Below, piece by piece: positions 1-42,011 of a stretch of DNA of 42,011 bases (the stretch's first letter is position 1; each line of letters starts with the position of its first letter). Where the stretch lies: the IMG/VR virus record IMGVR_UViG_3300025645_000150, positions 1 to 42,011 of that record; one strand, 5' to 3'. This DNA comes from a virus. The position numbers and the translations under genes are program-made. The notes beneath the pieces were generated by a model, which had not been told where the DNA came from, searched no databases, and was given only the letters and a program-made list of their open reading frames with translations.

Positions 1-88
1 TCGGCCCTCTGGGGTGATACACGTATTGTGTGCTTCTGAATGCAAAACTACTAAAAAATTTTTAACTACCAAAATCTTTGAGAGCGTA

Positions 89-145
89 GGGGTATTATGA
101 AACACACCCCACCTTAAGTAGAGTATTAACAGTACCCCCGGGTAC
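89..145 (+). other. Two inverted repeats in the leader before the first gene
   Basis: The 159 nt before the first start codon hold no gene. Two inverted repeats are visible: GGGGT (89-93) with ACCCC (106-110), and GTACCC (132-137) with GGGTAC (140-145), the second a near-perfect palindrome 14 bp upstream of the ATG at 160. They could be an operator or a leader hairpin. No Bacteroides-type TAnnTTTG promoter box was found here. Confidence 0.35.
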
Positions 146-159
146 ACAAAACTATTGAT

Positions 160-459
160 ATGCAAGAGAACATTGCAGGTGTAGTAGTAGGTTCAGTAGC
201 TCGTTCCTATGAAGGCAACACATACTACAGAGCTACAGCAAAGACAGCAGAAGGACTGATTTCCTTTAAGATAGCAGAGCGTCCAGCTTCAGGACAAAAT
301 GTATTGCTAGACATTTACAAGAAAGGCACCAAGCTACCATTTGGAGATGGTTCTATTCTTGAGAAAGATTTAGCAGTATGTAAGTTAGATAACTTCGATA
401 TTGAGGTTGTGAAGACAGCAGACGCATTGCTAAAAGAGCTAGAGGGTATTACATTGTAA
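160..459 (+). CDS. Hypothetical protein, 99 aa
   Basis: The reading frame starts at ATG 160 after an A/T-rich stretch and ends in TAA. The product is soluble with no membrane segment and no motif I recognise. Alternating polar and hydrophobic residues in the first 60 positions (IAGVVVGSV, YYRATA, LISFKI, NVLLDIY) suggest a small beta-rich fold, followed by a C-terminal helix (VVKTADALLKELEG). It stands alone ahead of the RNA-rich region, with more than 500 nt before the next substantial gene. Function unknown; the reading frame itself is convincing. Confidence 0.6.
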   Translation: MQENIAGVVVGSVARSYEGNTYYRATAKTAEGLISFKIAERPASGQNVLLDIYKKGTKLPFGDGSILEKDLAVCKLDNFDIEVVKTADALLKELEGITL

Positions 460-576
460 TACTCTTTATCTATCAACACAACATTAGTGTGTGAGTGTGT
501 CAACTAGACTGCATTCACCACTTTTGTGGGTCTTTCACATTTAGTGTCATTATTAACCATTACATTATATATCATT

Positions 577-639
577 ATGGACGAAGGCGAATGGCTAGAC
601 TGGATAATGGGAATTAGATTCCATAGTTATCCATACTAA
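577..639 (+). CDS. Possible 20-aa leader peptide just upstream of hammerhead 1
   Basis: An ATG at 577 opens a 20-codon frame (start MDEGEWLDWIMG) that ends in TAA at 637-639, two bases before the first stem of hammerhead ribozyme 1. It overlaps the hairpin at 601-633, so the peptide and the hairpin may be coupled, or the frame may be a chance by-product of a structured RNA. The upstream stretch 460-576 holds only a weak hairpin (CCAC/GTGG, 518-529) and no gene that I can support. Confidence 0.25.
   Translation: MDEGEWLDWIMGIRFHSYPY
601..633 (+). ncRNA. Long hairpin upstream of hammerhead 1
   Basis: TGGATAA (601-607) pairs with TTATCCA (627-633), and inside it GGAAT pairs with ATTCC around a TAG loop, giving 12 base pairs in two segments. 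It ends 7 nt before the first strand of the hammerhead. The two outer arms each resemble a DnaA box (TTATCCA core) in opposite orientation, so a DNA-level role is possible, but the RNA hairpin is the simpler reading. Confidence 0.5.
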
Positions 640-640
640 A

Positions 641-687
641 GATAATCTGATGAGCTTTTATTAAGCGAAACACTATGTGTCATTATC
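641..687 (+). ncRNA. Hammerhead ribozyme 1 (type I)
   Basis: All core elements are present in order. Stem I is GATAAT (641-646) with ATTATC (682-687), six perfect pairs. Then comes the invariant CTGATGA (647-653). Stem II is GCTT (654-657) with AAGC (663-666), closed by a five-base loop. GAAA follows (667-670). Stem III is CAC (671-673) with GTG (677-679). The cleavage triplet ends in T680-C681, so self-cleavage is predicted after C681. The open end is stem I, which makes it type I, the form common in bacteria and phages. It lies on the same strand as the neighbouring genes and partners a second copy 325 nt downstream. Confidence 0.93.
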
Positions 688-1009
688 AAAATATATAGAA
701 AGGTCGTGATATTCGACGTATTCCTAAGCAAGAAGACAAAAGGCTTTTTTAAAGATATTTAAGATTACAGGAGCTTAACATAATAGAGTGGTCGATCTCT
801 TTATGACAGGCAGGTTTGATCACCTGTGCCGACAGAGGCAGTTGAACTACAAGGTAGATTCAATCCTGTTGCTCCGTACAAAATAGCCTCACTCGTAAGA
901 CGGAAGGGAAGGAAGGATACCGATGACTAAATGTCAACGCAGAGTCTGGGCTTGTTTTTAACAAAGATATACTGATGAGTCTTCAATAGACGAAACACTG
1001 TAAAGTGTC
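682..1009 (+). ncRNA. Structured RNA released between two hammerhead ribozymes (328 nt)
   Basis: If both hammerheads cut, this RNA is freed with a 5'-hydroxyl and a 2',3'-cyclic phosphate. It contains no credible ORF but many helices: GTCG/CGAC near 703-717; CATAA-T-AGAG with CTCT-TTATG (779-805); CAGGT/ACCTG (811-826); GAGGC (835-839) with GCCTC (886-890) enclosing a hairpin of TTGAA-CTAC with GTAG-A-TTCAA (842-863); and TGAC/GTCA (924-936). GGAGC (770-774) can also pair with GCTCC (871-875), an acceptor-like closure. A purine-only run occupies 901-916. It matches no RNA family I recognise; it is not a standard tRNA because no T-arm forms. Function unknown. Confidence 0.7.
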
Positions 1010-1015
1010 TATATC
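966..1015 (+). ncRNA. Hammerhead ribozyme 2 (type I)
   Basis: Stem I is GATATA (966-971) with TATATC (1010-1015). CTGATGA follows (972-978). Stem II is GTCT (979-982) with AGAC (988-991) and a five-base loop. GAAA is at 992-995. Stem III is CACT (996-999) with AGTG (1004-1007), capped by a GTAA tetraloop of the GNRA class. The cleavage triplet ends in T1008-C1009, so cutting is predicted after C1009. Compared with hammerhead 1 the core is identical, while stems I and II differ by changes on both strands that keep pairing. The downstream product would begin 11 nt before the ATG at 1021. Confidence 0.94.
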
Positions 1016-1020
1016 AACCA

Positions 1021-1263
1021 ATGTTATATATTATGTCTTATTATACTTACGGCAGACTAAAGTTCTGCTATCAATTGTTAGCGTTTCTTACAGGTATTGT
1101 ATCTATAATACTTGCAATATTCGCTATTGTTAATACTTCAATTTTGTACGGCTGCGCAACAGCTGTTACAATAATGCTAACTGCAGCGTTCATCAAAAGA
1201 TCTGAGATGTATCAGACAAAGATGGACAACTGGAGTTACAAACACTATTTAGACAATGAATAG
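1021..1263 (+). CDS. Small two-helix membrane protein, holin-like candidate (80 aa)
   Basis: The product has two hydrophobic segments (about residues 18-37 and 42-55: LLAFLTGIVSIILAIFAIV, then ILYGCATAVTIMLTAAFI) followed by a charged C-terminus (KRSEMYQTKMDNW). Small size and two membrane helices fit a phage holin or another envelope protein, but there is no diagnostic motif. ATG 1021 gives the longest frame; ATG 1033 is an equally good start and sits further from hammerhead 2, which ends at 1015. The stop TAG at 1261 overlaps the start of the next gene (ATG 1256). With the two lipoproteins that follow it forms a three-gene overlapping cluster, so a lysis cassette is a plausible inference. 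Confidence 0.6.
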   Translation: MLYIMSYYTYGRLKFCYQLLAFLTGIVSIILAIFAIVNTSILYGCATAVTIMLTAAFIKRSEMYQTKMDNWSYKHYLDNE

Positions 1264-1396
1264 TAATTATACCCTCAAGGACTTAAGAGTACTAGTTGTA
1301 CTCTTTGTCCTTGCGGTGTGGTTAACATCATGTTCCTCACCGAAAACATTGACAGGAAATGGATATGTAAAATCACATTGTAAAATGAAACGATGA
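1256..1396 (+). CDS. Tiny lipoprotein, 46 aa
   Basis: The frame starts at ATG 1256 inside the end of the membrane-protein gene and stops at TGA 1394-1396. The product has a positively charged N-terminal segment (LKDLR), a hydrophobic stretch (VLVVLFVLAVW) and a lipobox LTSC at residues 23-26, so it should be lipid-modified at Cys26, leaving a mature peptide of about 20 residues (CSSPKTLTGNGYVKSH...). Overlap on both sides (8 nt upstream, an ATGA overlap downstream) implies translational coupling. Tiny phage lipoproteins beside a holin-like gene often act as outer-membrane spanins; that role is inference here. Confidence 0.6.
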   Translation: MNSNYTLKDLRVLVVLFVLAVWLTSCSSPKTLTGNGYVKSHCKMKR

Positions 1397-1581
1397 AATA
1401 TCTAATTATACTTATTTGTATCATAGCTCTAGGTAGCTGTGGTACAACACGTAGTCTTGAGCGTGCTAAGCTCGACTATGAACTTGACCAACTGTGGTCA
1501 GAATACAATTACAAAGCTGATTCTATTTGGATTCAGTATAATAATACAATCTCGGTGGATGCTCCTTCACTAACTGAATAA
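1393..1581 (+). CDS. Small lipoprotein, 62 aa
   Basis: The start ATG (1393) overlaps the stop of the preceding lipoprotein in an ATGA arrangement. Residues 1-16 are a lipoprotein signal (MKYLIILICIIALGSC) with lipobox LGSC and lipidation expected at Cys16. The mature part is about 46 residues, polar and probably helical, rich in Tyr and Trp (LDYELDQLWSEYNYKADSIWIQYN). A pair of overlapping small lipoprotein genes after a two-TM protein is consistent with a lysis or envelope module; no enzyme motif is visible. The end of the gene runs into the structured RNA region. Confidence 0.65.
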   Translation: MKYLIILICIIALGSCGTTRSLERAKLDYELDQLWSEYNYKADSIWIQYNNTISVDAPSLTE

Positions 1582-1611
1582 GCTTTACGCTAAAGGTTGG
1601 ACGAGATATAA

Positions 1612-1696
1612 TCAAGCAATGTATCCTGGGGGAGCAAGGCCAGTCGTGGCTACTGCTTAATATACCTACGAGAGGTAGTCCTACGGATACACTTGA
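1612..1696 (+). ncRNA. Structured RNA domain A
   Basis: A 12-bp closing helix pairs TCAAG-bulge-TGTATCC (1612-1626) with GGATACA-CTTGA (1685-1696), with a three-base bulge at 1617-1619. Inside are two hairpins: AGCA..GCCA with TGGC..TGCT (1633-1657) and CTAC/GTAG (1666-1678). This is a three-way junction 30 nt after the lipoprotein gene. No known ribozyme or riboswitch core was recognised. Confidence 0.55.
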
Positions 1697-1703
1697 CATA
1701 ATA

Positions 1704-1825
1704 TAATAACAGGTGTAACAATAAGCCTAGTGGTTAGTGATAACCTTCTAGAACTAGTGACGAACAGTAGAGGTGCCTCAAAGGGGAATGTAACATCGAG
1801 AAAAACGGCTGCTGACCTGTTATTA
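1704..1825 (+). ncRNA. Structured RNA domain B
   Basis: An 11-bp perfect long-range helix pairs TAATAACAGGT (1704-1714) with ACCTGTTATTA (1815-1825), enclosing 100 nt. Inside, CTAG-T-GGTTA pairs with TAACC-TT-CTAG (1727-1751) around a GTGA tetraloop of the GNRA class. The remaining interior (1752-1814) has no clear gene and weaker helices. The long closing helix is too regular to be easily explained by chance. Confidence 0.55.
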
Positions 1826-1832
1826 GTAACAT

Positions 1833-1921
1833 AAAGAGAGTTGGTTAGTGCACATAACCACCATCCCGATACAAGTGAAGCGGTGAAATACAGAAATAAG
1901 ACTAGGATCTGTACTCTCTTT
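1833..1921 (+). ncRNA. Structured RNA domain C, ending in a U-run
   Basis: AAAGAGAGT (1833-1841) pairs with ACTCTCTTT (1913-1921), immediately followed by more T residues, so the 3' side may also act as a terminator. The 71-nt interior holds TGGTTA/TAACCA (1842-1860), a weak CCG/CGG pair (1866-1883) and ACAGA/TCTGT (1890-1912), giving a clover-like layout. It is not a tRNA: no T-loop consensus is present. A further small hairpin, ACACT/AGTGT, follows at 1939-1954. The rest up to 2005 is A/T-rich and empty. Confidence 0.5.
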
Positions 1922-2005
1922 TTTATAATTAACAGAGGACACTGCTGAAAGTGTGTCATTGCTAACCACAATATATAATTACTAATTTATTAAATCTAAA
2001 AGAAA

Positions 2006-2248
2006 GTGAAAGAAAATGAAAGACTAATTTGGACAGTAACTTACAGTTGCGATGAATCGGGTGACACTACAGTGCCACTAAACTATCACACTTGCCAAAG
2101 AACATCAGTTTTTGGTAATAGTGAAGAAGCTCATGACTTTTATTCTCAATGCATTGGGCAGAAGGATATTAGACAGATAGCTATATCTTATGATGACTTA
2201 TGTCGTGCAAAATACGATGTTATAGACATAGACAAACTTAATTATTAA
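2006..2248 (+). CDS. Hypothetical protein, 80 aa (GTG start)
   Basis: The frame begins with GTG at 2006 in an A-rich context and ends in TAA. The nearby ATG at 2015 is in another frame and stops after three codons, so GTG is the supported start. The product is acidic, has four cysteines (Cys15, Cys30, Cys49, Cys66) and an aromatic N-terminus (LIWTVTYSC). No domain is recognised. It lies 18 nt upstream of the 212-aa gene and both probably share a transcript. Confidence 0.55.
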   Translation: MKENERLIWTVTYSCDESGDTTVPLNYHTCQRTSVFGNSEEAHDFYSQCIGQKDIRQIAISYDDLCRAKYDVIDIDKLNY

Positions 2249-2266
2249 TTTTTTAATCCATTAGAA

Positions 2267-2905
2267 ATGACAAATGCGATGAACAGTGGTAGTATCCCCA
2301 CTCTAAATGAGAATGATACACTATTGTACAGAATCTGGTCTACAAGTTCAGACAAAGTACAGCTAGAATTTATTGAAAATGTAAACAATCCATACAGAAG
2401 TGGTGGTGGTGCAGGTATAAACTTATTATATCTTGCTAACAAATCAGATGTAAGATTTACTCGTAGAGGGTATCGTGCATGGTTGACTGGTACTGCTGAA
2501 GATGTTTACCCATTATTCAACATTGATCCTAACCATGTAGCTAATAGCTGGCAACATGATGCTGAAAGAGATAAGAATTATGTTGAACTAAACATTGTTA
2601 ATCCAACTGTTGTTGGTGTAGCTAGTCCTGATGGCGAAGTTGTTCGTGCTAGAGTTCAGATTACTGAATCTACAGAGCCTAACGCTTGGCAAGCTGAAGA
2701 TCCAGAGAACCGCTGCAAGCGCAAAGGTAAAGATGGTGAAGTTATGCTACACAATGGAAAGAAAGTATTTATGAATGCACAAGTTGTATCATGTTATGGT
2801 GACACAGCTGCAGAGCAAACATTCTTGAAGACAGACACTGCTGTTGTACAAAACGCAGATGCCTTGGATAAGTTTGCAGATGTTGCAGGATTAAACCTAG
2901 GATAA
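2267..2905 (+). CDS. Hypothetical protein, 212 aa
   Basis: The start ATG at 2267 follows an A/T-rich stretch. The protein is soluble with a glycine-rich patch (YRSGGGAGINLLYLANKSD, about residues 43-61), a central region of apparent beta strands and a C-terminal charged region (CKRKGKDGEVMLHNGKKVF). No catalytic motif is seen. It is followed directly by a 12-bp hairpin at 2913-2948, so it is probably the last gene of its transcript. It may be a DNA-binding or structural accessory protein, but nothing in the sequence decides this. Confidence 0.65.
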   Translation: MTNAMNSGSIPTLNENDTLLYRIWSTSSDKVQLEFIENVNNPYRSGGGAGINLLYLANKSDVRFTRRGYRAWLTGTAEDVYPLFNIDPNHVANSWQHDAERDKNYVELNIVNPTVVGVASPDGEVVRARVQITESTEPNAWQAEDPENRCKRKGKDGEVMLHNGKKVFMNAQVVSCYGDTAAEQTFLKTDTAVVQNADALDKFADVAGLNLG

Positions 2906-2912
2906 TATAAAT

Positions 2913-2948
2913 AATTTAGGTATATCATTTGTTTGGTATACCTAAATT
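2913..2948 (+). terminator. 12-bp hairpin after the 212-aa gene
   Basis: AATTTAGGTATA (2913-2924) pairs perfectly with TATACCTAAATT (2937-2948) around a 12-base loop, starting 7 nt after the stop codon. There is no clean U-run, so it may be a processing or stability hairpin as much as a terminator. Its loop and right arm overlap the promoter that follows. Confidence 0.55.
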
Positions 2949-2959
2949 TACTATATTTG
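2928..2959 (+). promoter_or_regulatory. Bacteroides-type promoter for the AT-hook gene
   Basis: TTTG at 2928-2931, a 20-nt spacer and TATATTTG at 2952-2959 match the Bacteroides primary sigma consensus (TTTG, 19-21 nt, TAnnTTTG). It lies 49 nt upstream of the ATG at 3008. This is the only place in the left arm where I found both boxes at correct spacing, and it supports a Bacteroidota host. Confidence 0.65.
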
Positions 2960-3007
2960 TAAAGTTTTATAAAGAATATTTATACATAATTATCTAAATC
3001 ATTGAAA

Positions 3008-3199
3008 ATGAATACATTAATAAAAAGCGCAGGTAAGGTAGTAGCTACAGTATCTGCATCTCATAATGTCACAGTAACTGAAAAGCAGATTACTATTGAC
3101 TTATTTACTACCACGACTAAAACCAAAACCAAAAGACGTGGAAGACCTGTAGGGTCTAAAGCTAAGAAGTCTACTAAGACTACGAAGAAGACAGCCTAA
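3008..3199 (+). CDS. AT-hook DNA-binding protein, 63 aa
   Basis: The C-terminal half carries RRGRPVGSKAKK, a canonical AT-hook (GRP core flanked by basic residues) that binds the minor groove of A/T-rich DNA, embedded in a Thr/Lys-rich tail. The N-terminal half (MNTLIKSAGKVVATVSASHN) is short and of unknown role. ATG at 3008 is preferred over the in-frame TTG at 3002. It has its own Bacteroides-type promoter and is followed by a strong terminator, so it is a single-gene transcript read by host polymerase. It may be a nucleoid-like or regulatory protein; the target is unknown. Confidence 0.75.
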   Translation: MNTLIKSAGKVVATVSASHNVTVTEKQITIDLFTTTTKTKTKRRGRPVGSKAKKSTKTTKKTA

Positions 3200-3229
3200 T
3201 CAATAGACTGTTAATACTAATTGATAATG

Positions 3230-3248
3230 AAGGGGCCTTGTGCCCCTT
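3230..3248 (+). terminator. Terminator after the AT-hook gene
   Basis: AAGGGGC (3230-3236) and GCCCCTT (3242-3248) form a 7-bp GC-rich stem with a CTTGT loop, followed by TGTTGT. It lies 31 nt after the stop codon and separates this gene from the replication run. Confidence 0.75.
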
Positions 3249-3269
3249 TGTTGTCTAATTCTATTTATC

Positions 3270-3467
3270 ATGCAGAATACTACTTTAACTAGAGGAGAAG
3301 TATCTCTTCTTATACACAGCGTACAGCGCACTTTAATTAAGCTAGAGCAATATGATTCTAGTAGTGAGTTGGTTAGAAAGCATAGACTTCTTATCAACAG
3401 ATTATTAGATATAGAGCAGGCACTGAACGAAGAAATAAAGAAAGAACCAATAACAATATATAAATAA
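3270..3467 (+). CDS. Hypothetical helical protein, 65 aa
   Basis: The frame is open from 3240, but ATG at 3270 is chosen because it clears the upstream terminator and has an A/T-rich leader. The product is almost entirely predicted helix (GEVSLLIHSVQRTLIKLEQY, then LVRKHRLLINRLLDIEQALNEEIKK) and looks like a small coiled-coil or helical-hairpin protein. Its stop overlaps the next start (TAATG). No function is recognised. Confidence 0.6.
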   Translation: MQNTTLTRGEVSLLIHSVQRTLIKLEQYDSSSELVRKHRLLINRLLDIEQALNEEIKKEPITIYK

Positions 3468-3697
3468 TGGGAAAGATGAAAGAGTTATATGCAGCTATTC
3501 AAGAGGGAGAGATAGAAACCTTAAGACATAAGATTAGATCAGCTGAGCAACAAGGTCAGCCAGAATTAGAATGGCAAGGTAAATTTGTATCCACAACATA
3601 TGCTACATATCTAGTACAATTTAGTGATACATTCTTAAAAGAACTAACAGATGATAACATTAGTAACGCAAACAACAAGTCTGAGCGACTCATATAA
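3467..3697 (+). CDS. Hypothetical protein, 76 aa
   Basis: The start ATG overlaps the preceding stop by one base (TAATG), and the 3' end overlaps the start of the DNA polymerase gene by 47 nt in another frame, so the three genes are likely translated in coupling. The N-terminal part is helical and charged (MKELYAAIQEGEIETLRHKI). No domain is recognised. Its position suggests a small replication accessory, but this is inference from context only. Confidence 0.6.
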   Translation: MGKMKELYAAIQEGEIETLRHKIRSAEQQGQPELEWQGKFVSTTYATYLVQFSDTFLKELTDDNISNANNKSERLI

Positions 3698-5540
3698 GCT
3701 AGGCACTATTCAAAATGTGGTAGACTATTGCCACGACAAAGAAGTTCTAGGTGTTGATACAGAAACTGAAGGATTTGACTTTACTTGCAAGAAGATGATT
3801 ATGTTCCAGATTGGGGACGAGCATCAGCAGTTTGTTATAGACACTAGGTTTATTGATATTACACCTTTAAAAAATATATTAGAATCGCCTGCTATTATAA
3901 AGATATTTCACAATGCTAAGTTTGACTACAAGTTTATTAAAAAGTGGTCAGGTATAGAATGTGATGGAGTTTATGATACGTTTTTGGTTGAAAGAATACT
4001 ATCTTGTGGTCGTCACATAGGTTATGGACTGAAAGACCTCTGTAAACGCTACTTAAATGTAGAATTAAATAAGGAAATCAGAAACCAATTTATAGGGTTA
4101 TCCGGCCAAGCTTATCGTGATGACCAGATAGTATACGGTGCCAAAGACGTAGAATATTTATGTAAGCTTCGTAAGCTACAGTTGCCTAAGATAGAAGAGT
4201 TTAAACTACAGAGTGTAGTAGAACTTGAAAACCGTGCAGTGTTAGCATTCTCTGATATTGAATACAATGGTATTGATATTGATAGAGATGCTTGGGAGGT
4301 CATTGCACGTGCAAGCGAACAAGAAGCCTTGGACATGAGAGATAAATTAGATGACCTGGTAAAAATCGTCCCAGAGTTGTCGTGCTTTGTGTTAACTCAT
4401 GTTCAAGGTGACTTGTTTACTCCTATTGAAGATATACGTAAAGTTGGGGTCAAGTGGACTAGCCCTACACAAGTTCTAAAAGTATTTCAAAAACTAGTCC
4501 CTGAACTAGAAGATGTTAACGGTAAGAAAATGTACAAGTACAGACGTAAGCACAAAGTCATTGATTTGTATGTCAAATACAAAGAAAAGATGAAGCTTGC
4601 TACTTCTTACGGTAAAGACTTCTTTAAATTTGTTTCAAGCGATGGTAAAGTACATACGCAATTCAATCAAATACTTGACACTGGACGGGTCGCATCCAAG
4701 AAGCCAAACATGCAACAGATACCTGCGGATAATAAGTTCCGTAATTGCTTTTTGGCTCCTGACGGCTGGTGTTTCGTCAGCAGTGACTATTCTTCTCAAG
4801 AGCTTAATGTAATTGCATTTGGCTCTAGTGATCCTGTATGGATTAAAGCTCTTCAAAAAGGACAAGACTTACACAGTGTGTGTGCTGATCTTGTATACGG
4901 ACAAGAGTGGATAGATGCGGCTGAAGATGACTGTAGTTATATGAAGAACAAAAGCAAGTGTAAATGTCCTAAGCACGGTAAACTACGTACAAATGTTAAG
5001 ACTATTAACTTTGGACTAGCCTATGGTATGGGACCACATAAACTTGCGGATACTCTTGATATAAATACAAAGGCAGCTGAAGCTCTGATTAATAAATACT
5101 TTGAAGCGTTCCCAGCTATTGGCGGGTTCCTAGATAAACTAGGCAGCTTTGGCAAAAAGTTTGGTTATATCAAAACATTTCCACCCTACAACAGACGTCG
5201 TTGGTTTCCTACATGGTACCCTCGTATCTATAAAGACAAGAGCCAGGCTTTTGAGCTTGGTAGTATAGAGCGCGCTAGTAAGAATACACCTATACAAGGT
5301 GCATCTGCTGACATGACTAAGAAAGCTTTGATTCTTATCAGAGACCACATTAAACTGTATGACTTACCTGTAAAGATAGTTATGACAGTACATGACCAGG
5401 TAGACACTATATGTAAAGAGAGCATAGCAGAAGAGTGGGTGATTACAATGACAAGACTAATGGAGCAAGCAGCTCTTGAGGTAGTTACGAACGGTCTGTT
5501 GAAAGCAGACACAAATATTAGTAAATCATGGGAAAAATAA
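3651..5540 (+). CDS. Family A DNA polymerase with 3'-5' exonuclease domain
   Basis: This is the replicative polymerase, 629 aa. The N-terminal proofreading exonuclease has motif I (D36, E38 in VDTETEG), motif II (NAKFD, 88-92) and motif III (Y162 to D166 in YGAKD). The polymerase domain has TGRVASKKPNMQQIP (344-358), motif A (D379 in SSDYSSQEL), motif B (R446 to Y458, with K450 and F454) and motif C at 581-585 (HDQVD). In motif C the usual HDE is HDQ: the catalytic Asp582 remains but the neighbouring Glu is Gln. An insertion before motif B has C428, C437, C439 and H442, a possible zinc site. There is no 5'-3' exonuclease domain; a separate gene at 16780 supplies it. Confidence 0.96.
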   Translation: MITLVTQTTSLSDSYKLGTIQNVVDYCHDKEVLGVDTETEGFDFTCKKMIMFQIGDEHQQFVIDTRFIDITPLKNILESPAIIKIFHNAKFDYKFIKKWSGIECDGVYDTFLVERILSCGRHIGYGLKDLCKRYLNVELNKEIRNQFIGLSGQAYRDDQIVYGAKDVEYLCKLRKLQLPKIEEFKLQSVVELENRAVLAFSDIEYNGIDIDRDAWEVIARASEQEALDMRDKLDDLVKIVPELSCFVLTHVQGDLFTPIEDIRKVGVKWTSPTQVLKVFQKLVPELEDVNGKKMYKYRRKHKVIDLYVKYKEKMKLATSYGKDFFKFVSSDGKVHTQFNQILDTGRVASKKPNMQQIPADNKFRNCFLAPDGWCFVSSDYSSQELNVIAFGSSDPVWIKALQKGQDLHSVCADLVYGQEWIDAAEDDCSYMKNKSKCKCPKHGKLRTNVKTINFGLAYGMGPHKLADTLDINTKAAEALINKYFEAFPAIGGFLDKLGSFGKKFGYIKTFPPYNRRRWFPTWYPRIYKDKSQAFELGSIERASKNTPIQGASADMTKKALILIRDHIKLYDLPVKIVMTVHDQVDTICKESIAEEWVITMTRLMEQAALEVVTNGLLKADTNISKSWEK

Positions 5541-5965
5541 AATTATATAAACTAGATGCAAACGTTGCAAGAATACTTGCTACTGTGTCTAGACTTACTG
5601 AGGTCCCAATCAGTAAGATTAGAGGTAAAACCAGAAACGGTGAAGTAGTTGCGGCTAGACGTATATGTATGGTGCTTATTAATGATAAGTTAAAATACAG
5701 CTCTACTGTAAATGCTGCTATATTTCATAGAGATCATGCTACAGTGCTGCACGCATTTAAAGTGCATGCAGATCTTATGGATGTAGATAAGGCATATGCA
5801 GAGTTCTTTAATATATGTGAAATAGCTATAGGAATTAAAGGTATGTCAGATTCTAATGATAAAGATGAAATGATAAAAAAGTTTGCAGCTCGTGTGGAAT
5901 ATCTTGAGCATGAAAATGAAGAACTGCAAATGCAAATTAGTAAAATACAAGTAATATTATCATGA
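5528..5965 (+). CDS. DnaA domain IV-like DNA-binding protein, 145 aa
   Basis: Residues about 10-80 match the C-terminal duplex-binding domain of DnaA: a helical region with ISKIRGKTRNGEVVAARRICMVL, then FHRDHATVLHAFK (R68-A76), the equivalent of the DnaA signature (RDHSTVxHA) that reads the DnaA box. No AAA+ ATPase region is present. The C-terminus (about 113-145) is a heptad-like coiled coil (MIKKFAARVEYLEHENEELQMQISK), suggesting dimerisation. It overlaps the polymerase gene by 13 nt, fitting an origin-recognition or replication-regulating role. It could instead act as a competitor of host DnaA. Confidence 0.85.
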   Translation: MGKIKLYKLDANVARILATVSRLTEVPISKIRGKTRNGEVVAARRICMVLINDKLKYSSTVNAAIFHRDHATVLHAFKVHADLMDVDKAYAEFFNICEIAIGIKGMSDSNDKDEMIKKFAARVEYLEHENEELQMQISKIQVILS

Positions 5966-6348: not shown

Positions 6349-7507
6349 ACTAATAAAAGTAAAAGATACAGAGCAAAAGAAAGCTCTTAACAATTGGGCA
6401 AAGAAAGGTTTTAACGGTAGTATTATCGCTGGTACAGGCTTTGGTAAGTCTAGGTGTGGTGTTATAGCTGTAGCTAAAACCTTATCTGATGGTGGCAAGG
6501 GACTTGTACTAGTTCCTACCCATCAGTTGCAAGACCAATTTAAAGAGGAGTTTATTAAGTGGGGCTATGAGTCTGCGCTAGATAATGTAGACATCTTATG
6601 TTATGCTTCTGCTTACAAGCTAGAGGATCAGCACTATGATGTTGTGGTCTGTGATGAGATACACCTTGGTCTGTCACCTGAGTATCGCAAGTTCTTTGAG
6701 AACAATACTTGGGACAGATTATTGTGCATGACTGCTACATTACCTGAAGATTACGAGTATAAAGAGTTGTTGTACAAGATTGCTCCTCTAGTGTATATGA
6801 TAAGTCTTGATGAATGTGTAGCGCTTGGCCTTGTTTCTCCTTATGAGATAGTTTGCATACCTATACAGCTAACTGATGTTGAACAGAAAGAGTACAAGAA
6901 AGCTAATAATACATTTGTATATGCTAAATACTGTCTTGGACAGTTTGGTGCATTTGATAAAGCAAAGCATATTATGGGTGCAGGTAAACACACGGCTAGC
7001 TCTGAAGATAAAGCTGCTGCTGCACAGTTCTATCGCTCTATTAGAGCACGTAAAGCTGTGGTAGACCATGCCGATGGTAAAATTGCAGAGTTGCAAAAGA
7101 TTGTTGTCAAGAACATAGGTGAAAAGATACTTGTGTTTGGTGGTAGCAATGAGTTTACTAACAAACTTGCAGATGCAACAGAAACATTCTCTACTGTATA
7201 TCACAGTGGGAAAACTAAGAAACAAAAAGAACAAGCACTGAAAGATTTTAGATCAGGTGACAAGCCTGTGCTGTGTTCTACAAAAGCTTTGAACCAGGGC
7301 TTCGATGTGGCTGATGCTACAATGGCTGTTATATGTGGCTTGACTAGCAAGTCCTTAACTATGATACAACGTGTAGGTAGAATTATACGTTATCAAGAAG
7401 GTAAGATAGGCAAGATACATATCTTGTATGTCAAGGATAGTCAAGAAGAAAAATGGTTGAAAAGTAGTGTGAAAAATCTAGATAATGTGACCTGGTTACC
7501 TTGTTAA
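6341..7507 (+). CDS. SF2 DNA helicase (388 aa)
   Basis: This is a DEAD-like superfamily 2 helicase. Walker A is GTGFGKS (31-37), Walker B is DEIH (105-108), motif III is TAT (131-133), and the second RecA-like lobe carries a motif V region (STKALNQGFDVADATMAV) and motif VI QRVGRIIR. It resembles the compact phage helicases of the UvsW/type III restriction subunit kind, which remodel branched DNA in replication and recombination. ATG 6341 is preferred over the in-frame ATG 6314 because it overlaps the previous stop (ATGAGTAA), an arrangement repeated at other gene junctions here. Confidence 0.93.
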   Translation: MSKLIKVKDTEQKKALNNWAKKGFNGSIIAGTGFGKSRCGVIAVAKTLSDGGKGLVLVPTHQLQDQFKEEFIKWGYESALDNVDILCYASAYKLEDQHYDVVVCDEIHLGLSPEYRKFFENNTWDRLLCMTATLPEDYEYKELLYKIAPLVYMISLDECVALGLVSPYEIVCIPIQLTDVEQKEYKKANNTFVYAKYCLGQFGAFDKAKHIMGAGKHTASSEDKAAAAQFYRSIRARKAVVDHADGKIAELQKIVVKNIGEKILVFGGSNEFTNKLADATETFSTVYHSGKTKKQKEQALKDFRSGDKPVLCSTKALNQGFDVADATMAVICGLTSKSLTMIQRVGRIIRYQEGKIGKIHILYVKDSQEEKWLKSSVKNLDNVTWLPC

Positions 7508-7538
7508 TCAGGCGCATTTTTCGTAAATTTATAAGCTT

Positions 7539-8084
7539 ATGCAATTAGAAATTGACATTAATTTATTAACTGAAAATGAGATAAGTGCAGATGATTATCT
7601 TGCTTTGTATGCTATATACAGAAAAGGATTTAAGACTCTGTCTAATCTAAAATTAAACCCTAACTGGGATGACTTACAAGAGAAAGGATTCGTTAAGATT
7701 GGCCCTGAAGGCTATGACACATACATTGTTAGGCAGAAGTTTATTGATTTGTTTGCTTCTGATTTTGATCAGATGTTTGCTCAGCTTTTGGCTACGTATC
7801 CTATGAAAGTTAGAACATCTAATGGTATCAGGGTATTACATGCTTCAGATCCAGATGCCAAGACAAACTTTAAAGCCAAAGAAAGGTATAGAAAGATTGT
7901 TTTGGATAGAAGGCACGTGCATGATCGTATTATGAAACTATTACATGTTCAGCTGAAGGTAGACAAACAAAGATTAGAATACTTACAAAATCTTGAAGTG
8001 TGGATAAACAATCACACTTGGGAAAAATACACAAATATAGACGACGATGCAGGAGAACAAGAAAGAATCACAAGAAGACTCTAA
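7539..8084 (+). CDS. Hypothetical replication protein, possible helicase loader (181 aa)
   Basis: The protein has an N-terminal part that could be a small winged-helix-like region and a basic, helical C-terminal half ending LQNLEVWINNHTWEKYTNIDDD. The layout YPMKVRTSNGIRVLHASD, then K..RYRKIV, then L..LEVWINN..WEKY resembles phage replisome-organiser and loader proteins found next to DnaB-type helicases. The gene overlaps the DnaB-type helicase start by 38 nt, which strengthens that reading. There is no ATPase motif, so a DnaC-type AAA+ loader is excluded. Confidence 0.6.
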   Translation: MQLEIDINLLTENEISADDYLALYAIYRKGFKTLSNLKLNPNWDDLQEKGFVKIGPEGYDTYIVRQKFIDLFASDFDQMFAQLLATYPMKVRTSNGIRVLHASDPDAKTNFKAKERYRKIVLDRRHVHDRIMKLLHVQLKVDKQRLEYLQNLEVWINNHTWEKYTNIDDDAGEQERITRRL

Positions 8085-40006: not shown

Positions 40007-42011
40007 TTAAATATATTTTTTAACTCCGCCGTACATAGCGCTTTGTTGCTCTTGCTGATTCTTAAGCATTTGCATGTAGTAATCCTGAACTGCCTTCTTA
40101 TACTCTGCACTGCTCGGATCTAGACCAAGACTATCTTGTACCATCTTTCCAATCTGCTCTCTTGTATATACACCCGTGCCTCCAGAGATAGCTCGTGCTA
40201 ATCTTTCTTGAGCATCATACTTAAGCCTATCAGTATTCATAGTAGCCATAGATTTAAACGCATTGTCTAACGCCATCAACTTTCTATCTTCTACTGCAGC
40301 ATCAGCAGATCTGTTAAACTCATCAGTATACATAGCATTCTTTATGTTGTTTAATCTAGCTTGCTGGTTAGCCATCTTAGTTTGCATAGCTATTTGAGCT
40401 TCTTGATTACCAATCTCAGTGTTTACTCTAGATTCTTGTGCAGCAATCTTTAAATCGCCAGTCTGCTTACGTCCATAAGCTGCCATCTTAGCAATGATAC
40501 CAGCTGGTCCAATACCACTAGTCTCAATAAATCTGTTCATAGCCCTAGCGTCAGCTGCATTCTGAGCACGCTCTGTGTTATAACTTACTCTATCTAATCT
40601 TTCAGCTCTTATGTTATTAACCTTTCCAGGTTCAGACATGTACTTAGGCTTAGTAGCAAATGCTGCGGCTGCAGGTATAAGCTGACCTATCTGTGCTGCA
40701 CTTGTAAGTAGATCACTGTTCTTTAAACCTTTCTTAAACTGATCTTTAAGGTACTCACCCCTAGGTAATACTCTCTTCTTTTTCTTTTGATTATCATCAT
40801 CTTTCAAGTCATCAGGCAACACAGCCGGTATTAACTTAATCTCAGACTCTGGAAGATCTATCTTATCAATTGTCTTAGGCTCAATATACTCTATAGTCTC
40901 TTCTTTTCTTTTATTAGTGTTAGTAGTAGTAGACTTCTTTTCCTCTTTCTTTTCCTCTTCAGGTTTTACATACACACCATTTTCAGCATCCCATATATAC
41001 CCCTGATTTATCATATTAAAATGCTCTTCTCTTTGTCTACGAGCTTCATCAGTCATAAAACTTTGTGTTTCATCATCCCAGGACACAGGACTGTCTACAG
41101 TATTATATGAGGTTTGTGTAAAGTCCATAAACTCTCCTCCCTTATCATACATATTGTATCCACCTGCTCCTAGTTTTACAGCATTAGGATCTCTACCTGC
41201 TTTATCTTCTTGTAGCTTGGCTAGAGCATCAACATCTCTTTGACTTCCACCATTCTTTAGTATCTCTTTATGTCTCTGTGCAAATGACTTACCTCCCATC
41301 TTTAAGTGTTGTGAGAAGAAGTAGTCTCTTTTACCGCCCTTCTTAGCTATAGTAACTTGATCCATAGTCTCTCCACCTTCTACTTCAGTCATAGGATCTA
41401 CCATGATACCACCCTCATCGTGTGATTGCCCTTTAAACTCTACAGCATCAGATCCTGGTATAGGATTCATGCTACCGCCCGGTAGCTGTACACCACCCAT
41501 TTGATAGTAACCACCGTACTTGGCTACATCAGTACCAAAGTCAAAGCCTGAGTACTCTTTAGACTTCATTTCCTCTGTTCGTCTTTTTGCTCCTATTCTT
41601 CCTAACTCTCTCTTCTTTTTATCTTCAGCTTTTCCTTCTTCTCTTCTAGCTTTACCTCTTTGTATAAGTCCTTTACCTAAACCGTATATAGCTCCACCTA
41701 CAACACCGGCCGCCGTACCTACAGGACCTAGTGTTGATCCCATTAGTGCTGCAGTTGTCATGGCTGCACCAATACCTGTACCAATACCTGATAAAGCTGA
41801 ACCAGTTGTCTCTCCTACATTCATTGTAGTAGCATCTTGATCATCAGATGCCATCTTAATACCTTCACCTGCAAGTGATGCAATAGCTCCAACGCCACCC
41901 ATACCTATACCTGCTCCTGCTCCGGCAGCAGTGCTAGTTGTAGCCTGTGCTAACTGGGCAGTTCCTTCTTGTGCAGCTTTCATACCTGCAGTTTGTACAC
42001 CTGTAACTACT
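40007..42011 (-). CDS. Probable inner-virion protein with glycine-rich hydrophobic N-terminus (partial at the 5' end)
   Basis: The frame stays open to the window edge beyond the first in-window ATG at 41983 (VVTGVQTAG reads in), so the true start may lie outside. Near the N-terminus are glycine/alanine-rich hydrophobic stretches (GAGAGIGMGGVGAIASLAGE; GTGIGAAMTTAALMGSTLGP; TAAGVVGGAIYGLGKGL), which could insert in membranes. A conserved-looking segment follows (DAVEFKGQSHDEGGIMVDP then EVEGGETM), seen in many Bacteroidota-phage virion proteins. The middle is Lys/Glu-rich and the C-terminus helical. It fits a protein ejected into the host envelope with the polymerase; inference from context. 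Confidence 0.65.
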   Translation of the reverse strand, partial: VVTGVQTAGMKAAQEGTAQLAQATTSTAAGAGAGIGMGGVGAIASLAGEGIKMASDDQDATTMNVGETTGSALSGIGTGIGAAMTTAALMGSTLGPVGTAAGVVGGAIYGLGKGLIQRGKARREEGKAEDKKKRELGRIGAKRRTEEMKSKEYSGFDFGTDVAKYGGYYQMGGVQLPGGSMNPIPGSDAVEFKGQSHDEGGIMVDPMTEVEGGETMDQVTIAKKGGKRDYFFSQHLKMGGKSFAQRHKEILKNGGSQRDVDALAKLQEDKAGRDPNAVKLGAGGYNMYDKGGEFMDFTQTSYNTVDSPVSWDDETQSFMTDEARRQREEHFNMINQGYIWDAENGVYVKPEEEKKEEKKSTTTNTNKRKEETIEYIEPKTIDKIDLPESEIKLIPAVLPDDLKDDDNQKKKKRVLPRGEYLKDQFKKGLKNSDLLTSAAQIGQLIPAAAAFATKPKYMSEPGKVNNIRAERLDRVSYNTERAQNAADARAMNRFIETSGIGPAGIIAKMAAYGRKQTGDLKIAAQESRVNTEIGNQEAQIAMQTKMANQQARLNNIKNAMYTDEFNRSADAAVEDRKLMALDNAFKSMATMNTDRLKYDAQERLARAISGGTGVYTREQIGKMVQDSLGLDPSSAEYKKAVQDYYMQMLKNQQEQQSAMYGGVKKYI

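Follow-up and report, generated by a model that had tools for sequence, protein, structure and literature searches.

The window, by which we mean the whole 42,011-nucleotide stretch of viral DNA analysed here (IMG/VR record IMGVR_UViG_3300025645_000150), has genes for DNA polymerase A, helicases, a primase and rIIA/rIIB-like proteins on its plus strand, whereas its minus strand holds very long ORFs (4425 and 1663 aa). A sister contig (IMGVR_UViG_3300034375_003182), identical to the window over positions 56–3600, carries head, portal and terminase proteins on its minus strand. The head protein of this contig matched 144 phage records, the best 6 of the 144 all being Crassvirales (30–31%). The window primase matched 124 phage records, seven of the best eight being cr-numbered phages and three of these classed as Crassvirales, and the window polymerase matched 4778 records from many phages, with 12 of the best 15 crAss-like at 27–30% and one from a cyanobacterial phage. 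Together the three sets of matches support a crAss-like identity, and the sister contig's major head protein and the window primase back the crAss-like assignment made in a sequence-only reading of this DNA. Searches by DNA found no named relatives in a phage collection (sensitive search) or a plasmid collection (near matches only). Each end of the sister contig (82.7 kb) carries a 99-aa gene of the window (160–459; L028, L035), at 100% and 96% identity, and the genome seems to hold two copies of it near the contig ends.

Two predicted compact type I hammerhead ribozymes, HH1 (641–687) and HH2 (966–1015), lie on the plus strand, each recognized by a stem finder and by the profile models R1 and R2. 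In HH1, stem I is GATAAT/ATTATC (641–646/682–687), the core CTGATGA occupies 647–653 and GAA 667–669, stem II is GCTT/AAGC with loop TTATT and stem III is ACAC/GTGT with loop TAT. HH2 has stem I GATATA/TATATC (966–971/1010–1015), its core at 972–978 and GAA at 992–994, stem II GTCT/AGAC with loop TCAAT and stem III ACACT/AGTGT with loop GTAA. Both copies have three stems with stem I open, stems I, II and III comprising 6, 4 and 4 pairs in HH1 and 6, 4 and 5 in HH2. The type I core (C3 U4 G5 A6 N7 G8 A9, G12 A13 A14, A15.1–U16.1 and H17, a residue list taken from a passage of PMC3088659) is complete in both. The six-pair stem I, four-pair stem II and full core described in the sequence-only reading were found in both copies exactly where it had placed them, and the letters of both stems confirm that stems I and II differ between the copies by changes on both strands. 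Cleavage is predicted after C681 (681/682) and C1009 (1009/1010), and these sites from the stem finder agree with those first proposed. Judged by its letters, the pair is confirmed as two complete type I hammerhead ribozymes.

Folding-energy models, which leave tertiary contacts out of account, return the hammerhead fold for HH2 alone. For HH1 by itself, and for the two copies in longer context, they favour different folds. Stem I of HH1 is short and A/U-rich, and the local fold places its 5′ strand on an upstream AGTTATC. Pairing with this alternative partner (window 625–646) is a possible on/off fold.

Taken by itself the core pattern is weak evidence, since its 3 matches in the window compare with 0.67 expected and 4 of 100 shuffles reach 3. 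When stems were required as well (I at least 5 bp, II at least 4 bp, III at least 4 bp), the real window gave 2 matches and 300 dinucleotide-shuffled windows gave 0, in keeping with the earlier view that a chance origin is very unlikely. The stem finder did not report the third core match, at 40781–40815 on the minus strand. Across 1.04 Mb of new loci the stem finder returned 182 hammerheads, a number enriched by design because these loci had been selected for core and stem II, and the same DNA read backwards returned 0; false matches are therefore rare. Model R1 scored HH1 at 55.6 bits and HH2 at 63.1 bits. Model R2, trained on 59 hammerheads of other phages (alignment A2) with the window and its near relatives excluded, scored HH2 at 62.5 bits (E 3.1e-13) and HH1 at 54.3 bits (E 4.6e-11) over 255 kb. 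HH1 and HH2 are a real pair of ribozymes and very probably active.

In the covariance-model search that had been suggested for this pair, R2, built from other phages, matches both copies. Counting against the pair, Rfam at gathering thresholds had no match anywhere in the window. At a loose E-value, Rfam returned Hammerhead_3 in the window in a different register (27.0 and 18.0 bits) and the RAGATH-1 hammerhead at HH2 with 23.4 bits. The window does not reach the RF00163 gathering score of 34 bits, which is a search threshold of Rfam and not a chemical feature.

The two ribozymes sit beside short genes. A 20-codon ORF (577–639, plus strand) ends with the stop TAA at 637–639, one base before HH1, and other ORFs take its slot in relatives. 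HH2 precedes a plus-strand gene at 1021–1263, which encodes 80 aa from ATG 1021 or 76 aa from a conserved in-frame ATG at 1033. The predicted HH2 cut would leave a leader of 11 nt (ATG 1021) or 23 nt (ATG 1033); the start context is kept in L024, L026 and L027, and the distance of ATG 1033, which relatives share, suits the family. HH2 is, by its position, the putative leader ribozyme of the gene at 1021/1033.

A 328-nt RNA (682–1009, plus strand), delimited by the two predicted cut sites, would be released with a 5′-OH and a 2′,3′-cyclic phosphate end. It would contain the two parts of a conserved non-coding element, E1 (696–750, the 5′ part, shared with L036, L177, L178, L183, L185 and L140) and E2 (884–959, the 3′ part, shared with L175, L177, L178, L183 and L185), both on the plus strand and kept in relatives with variable inserts. 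E1 reads as a hairpin (GTCG/CGAC and AAGC/GCTT) plus a T run, and E2 ends GGGCTTGTTTTT. Judged by eye, pairing is conceivable between GTATTCC and GGAATAC of the element and, across it, between AGCC..ACTC and GAGT..GGGCT, in a possible pseudoknot, and GACG/CGTC is exchanged for GTCG/CGAC. The insert of the window haplotype, X (770–875, plus strand), has a predicted multibranched single-sequence fold closed by GGAGC/GCTCC and is absent from all four relatives aligned in A3; the region around it (761–880) has a folding z of −2.6.

A structured RNA had been claimed between the copies. What stands is a non-coding element kept in relatives, whereas the 328-nt region as a whole folds no better than shuffles (z −0.97). 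The z of the supposed RNA is higher than that of coding stretches nearby, and energy alone was therefore discarded as a criterion; as proof of structure it is unconvincing both for the 328-nt region and for 1580–1930. Membership of a known family was rejected likewise, the window being without an Rfam match at gathering. For the bracketed RNA, Rfam gave nothing beyond hammerhead families at E up to 5, and its counterparts in L183, L178 and L185 had no Rfam match at E up to 3. Two further observations concern non-coding stretches. In locus L140 an E1 copy is followed, about 470 nt downstream, by a compact hammerhead. Window 1580–1930 also looks non-coding; L036 and L033 have different content there, and part of the stretch resembles L179 near 1735–1800.

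Among relatives of the locus, those at 99–100% identity have both HH1 and HH2. In three lineages that are 87–94% alike over the matching stretches (L024/L036, L026/L033 and L027), HH2 is kept with stem II or III changed and HH1 is absent; window ~586–964 is replaced there by an ORF plus E1 (L024/L036), by another ORF (L026/L033) or by almost nothing (L027). For relatives of the downstream gene at 57–63% identity (L175–L178), neither the locus nor the complete record, which is fragmentary in part, contains a hammerhead. The corresponding slot holds E1 and E2 in L177 and L178 and E2 alone in L175/L176, and L179 lacks E1, E2 and the ribozymes. Absence of the core from related phages had been named as evidence against the pair: the core is present in both copies at 99–100% and in HH2 at 87–94%, but in neither at 57–63%. 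As a predicted ribozyme, HH2 is more widely shared than HH1. Because hammerhead-free relatives carry the E element, the ribozymes were either gained on both sides of a non-coding RNA that is older than they are or lost in other lineages.

The same compact hammerhead recurs widely in phages. A pattern derived from HH1 and HH2 matched 25 viral stretches and a looser pattern at least 120. From 153 sequences (152 loci and the window, the window pieces L001 and L002 being left out) we counted 195 copies in viral loci, distinct over the ribozyme plus 10 nt either side. Stem I has exactly 6 bp in 188 of the 195 and stem II has 4 bp in 183. An alignment of 96 of 142 short copies (A1, 59 of which form A2) shows an A preceding stem I and mostly AA after it, flanks that are conserved, and a G–C outer pair of stem I in 90/96. 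Pairs in stems I and II are exchanged on both strands, that is, they covary, and loop II follows UNNWU, with letters partly fixed by the scan pattern. Since stem I pairing was a selection criterion of the finder and part of loop II consists of scan-pattern letters, these two features are no evidence by themselves. The conserved flanking A and AA, together with UNNWU, suggest that the stem I region may make a tertiary contact with loop II. An independent test used matches to a loose scan pattern that fixed only core and stem II letters: in the new loci, locus ends excluded, 127 of 132 matches also showed, in register, a stem I no shorter than 5 bp and a stem III no shorter than 3 bp.

Rfam thresholds were not reached by these copies in the loci scanned. 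None of 58 hammerheads in 17 hammerhead-rich loci was found at any Rfam cut-off, and RF00163 at a loose E-value found 4 of 11 finder hammerheads in four loci, at 30.0, 28.8, 27.1 and 22.6 bits against the required 34. As Rfam at its cut-offs missed the window pair as well as the copies of the 17 loci, phage annotation probably overlooks the subtype. Forty records searched whole have 1 to 7 copies each, these records and the 17 Rfam-scanned loci having been picked because they hold hammerheads. A close pair had been thought unusual; this does not hold, as the set contains 63 adjacent pairs no more than 3 kb apart (median spacing 536 nt) and clusters are described in passages of Perreault 2011 (PMC3088659). 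Stem I is identical in 21 of the 63 adjacent pairs (for example L037, L046 and L136), where religation or exchange between messages is conceivable.

In host chromosomes (genome_contigs), the pattern gave 43 matches in 39 stretches, 21 of them with stems and 11 with a downstream ORF, fewer stretches than the at least 120 that the same scan found in viral contigs. Two loci of a Polaromonas MAG (L216, L227) have four similar hammerheads, each followed by nearly identical 40 nt without an ORF, an arrangement that resembles an interspersed repeat more than a leader.

The copies in phages are placed with some regularity. An ATG-opened ORF (at least 30 codons, or reaching the locus end) begins no more than 60 nt after the cut in 174 of 192 hammerheads, at a median distance of 26 nt, compared with 1324 of 3840 random same-strand positions (34%) and 37 of 193 opposite-strand positions; the 192 are the 195 copies minus three whose cut lies less than 60 nt from a locus end. 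HH1 is among the 18/192 that lack such an ORF. The complete downstream ORFs are short (median 77.5 aa, n=164); a DNA ligase and an anti-restriction protein of the ArdC-like kind are among those recognized when 14 of the longer ones were scanned. Upstream, taking the longest ORF and the 177 copies that have a 6-bp stem I and lie at least 300 nt from the locus start, a stop codon falls at −15 to +12 of the ribozyme start in 137 of 177, against 409 of 3900 random places. In 27 of the 177 the stop is the first TGA of CUGAUGA, such that catalysis and termination use the same letters, and in 27 it lies inside stem I. The stops outside the interval comprise 17 further upstream and 15 further inside, and 8 copies have no 30-codon ORF. 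Related phages occur in this set of loci, which had been retrieved with a core/stem II pattern, so these placement counts are not independent samples.

The typical context is a gene junction just before a start codon, not a tRNA gene. An association with tRNA was rejected: there is no tRNA in the window and none in 24 of the 25 loci scanned. In L152, a hammerhead with no ORF after it is followed at a distance of about 35 nt by a tRNA-like call (7527–7597, minus strand).

Named phages also carry the subtype. Eleven T7-like Pelagivirus genomes were searched whole, ten chosen as relatives of L135 (which has four copies) and HTVC022P for its RNA-seq; nine have a match, 11 matches in total, and all 11 lie upstream of the phage RNA polymerase gene. 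One of them, HTVC031P 306–361, is weak (26.8 bits) and was missed by the stem finder. No hammerhead match was found in HTVC105P, HTVC121P or HTVC027P, the last from another group. The annotated gp05 start (1121) of HTVC109P (L153) falls inside a hammerhead at 1103–1166, and this annotated gene start is therefore probably wrong. HTVC022P has its match at 2295–2361, and RNA-seq of its infection is public (PRJNA1253180; described in the relevant passage of PMC12753301). As cultured, named phages carry the subtype and these reads are available, the claim can be checked without new experiments.

Named Crassvirales genomes were taken from the polymerase, primase and head-protein matches plus phi14:2, and were chosen before any hammerhead search there. 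One of the ten, cr272_1, has two matches, and the other nine have none. The cr272_1 hammerheads (NC_055903.1, L249) lie on the minus strand at 5500–5556 and 6850–6904, and one of them is a RAGATH-1 hammerhead above the Rfam cut-off, at 73.2 bits. Downstream of this copy come about 780 bases with no annotated gene, where, by eye, similar blocks seem to recur.

From the observed structures, the conservation of HH2 and of the E element, and the placement rule at junctions, we infer that the pair is probably active and cuts the phage transcript at both junctions, which would free a 328-nt RNA and trim the leader of the next gene. Both ribozymes would act during transcription. HH1 begins one base past the stop of the 577–639 ORF; through the HH2 cut the gene at 1021/1033 would gain a new 5′-OH end, with its start codon 11 or 23 nt further on. 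The two cuts together would release an RNA of E1, X and E2 ending in HH2's own hairpins, and the benefit would be that a polycistronic transcript becomes separate units with no need of a protein nuclease. Against this, the E element and the gene occur without a hammerhead in relatives at greater distance; these relatives and the nine Crassvirales genomes without matches indicate that the ribozymes are dispensable there.

The bracketed RNA might instead be incidental, each hammerhead serving its own junction and HH1 being the leader of a gene later replaced by E1-X-E2. The ORF that follows 174/192 hammerheads fits this account, as does the slot from ~580 to HH2, whose content differs with each relative (ORF and E1 in L036, an ORF in L033, almost nothing in L027). 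We nevertheless consider it doubtful, because E1 and E2 are kept in relatives in the same slot, which makes the RNA more than debris, and because a cr272_1 hammerhead likewise stands before ~780 bases that lack annotated genes. The position of upstream stops at or inside the ribozyme (27/177 in the leading TGA of CUGAUGA, another 27 within stem I), together with the alternative upstream partner of the HH1 stem I strand, would also suit a regulatory switch, in which upstream translation or alternative pairing gates cleavage and so sets downstream expression. Such a switch is unlikely: the alternative pairing of HH1 is known from one sequence alone, and Rfam at gathering finds no known riboswitch in the window.

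That the motifs are relics, with neither activity nor benefit, is very improbable. HH1 is indeed missing in close relatives and both copies in more distant ones, but the core letters are intact in both, the stems are compensated, and the HH2 fold is kept while letters of stem II or III change among relatives. Two ribozymes bracketing an RNA also recall retrozymes and viroid-like agents, in which the excised RNA would be religated into a circle; in other pairs, stem I is identical in 21/63 and the three core-proximal chimeric pairs are kept in 39/63. For the window pair, however, the chimeric stem I (GATATA with ATTATC) forms 4 of 6 pairs and loses both core-adjacent ones, and the circle model fails on this account. 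Direct repeats of at least 14 nt in 400–1400 are sparse, being the ribozymes themselves and one 20-nt pair (80%), and no reverse transcriptase family was found among the 12 window ORFs scanned. We hence rejected a circular RNA or retrozyme here as very improbable.

In the early region of T7, RNase III cuts between early genes to yield single-gene messages. If the cutting model is true, compact hammerheads would be message cutters that often overlap the upstream stop codon and do the job of RNase III in T7. With a stop codon on one side and a start ~26 nt past the cut, this job would be a specific one, the making of single-gene phage messages. A tentative generalization, to which we give somewhat less than an even chance, is that compact leader hammerheads are general protein-free message cutters of phages, one at each of several early junctions, and that some crAss-like phages also use them to excise non-coding RNAs. 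Phages may thus slice their own messages without a protein enzyme, the same compact type recurring at many phage gene boundaries.

Both the hammerhead class and the idea that it processes phage messages are already known. Passages of Perreault 2011 (PMC3088659) describe clustered hammerheads that flank prophage genes, singly or in short blocks, and propose that they process long phage transcripts; three clustered arrangements cleave in vitro and one, from A. tumefaciens, in E. coli. The same passages place a hammerhead variant of haloviruses HF1/HF2 13 nt before a start codon, with its cut no more than 3 nt from a mapped 5′ end. According to the relevant section of a 2017 review (PMC6155905), prokaryotic hammerheads lie close together, flank ORFs for small proteins and are often phage-linked, and their role is an open question. 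No paper on the compact subtype, or on hammerheads in crAss-like or Pelagibacter phages, was found among the matches listed, in a search with preprints and most subscription journals outside its scope.

The compact subtype shares with RF00163 (Hammerhead_1) the core CUGANGA...GAAA...UH, an open stem I and capped stems II and III, and differs in its 6-bp stem I, 4-bp stem II with UNNWU, flanking A/AA and sub-gathering scores. RAGATH-1 (RF03152) has a similar core, and cr272_1 carries one in an unannotated context; HH2, however, scores 23.4 against a cut-off of 56.3, and the upstream hairpin of the model is not formed. Theta ribozymes, HDV-like RNAs of gut phages, are likewise small self-cleaving RNAs thought to process phage transcripts, but they have an HDV-like fold and cut at tRNA 3′ ends, as the corresponding passages of PMC10879173 state, whereas the window copies stand in a gene-junction context. 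The window has no HDV family match at gathering and no tRNA.

Like the clusters in the passages of Perreault 2011 (PMC3088659), the copies reported here are multiple hammerheads around genes for which transcript processing is proposed; they differ in forming a narrow compact subtype at a regular distance from start codons in crAss-like and T7-like phages, and in the non-coding RNA that two of them bracket. What appears to be new is the compact subtype below Rfam thresholds, some members of which may be in Perreault Dataset S1, and its stop–ribozyme–start placement. Two further points appear to be new: that the subtype sits in the early region in T7-like phages that have been isolated, and that in a crAss-like phage it brackets a non-coding RNA. 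Finally, the Pelagivirus hammerheads lie in the region corresponding to that of the T7 RNase III sites, upstream of the RNA polymerase gene, and may be their equivalents; they would differ in that the cut is RNA-catalysed, with predicted 5′-OH and 2′,3′-cyclic phosphate ends.
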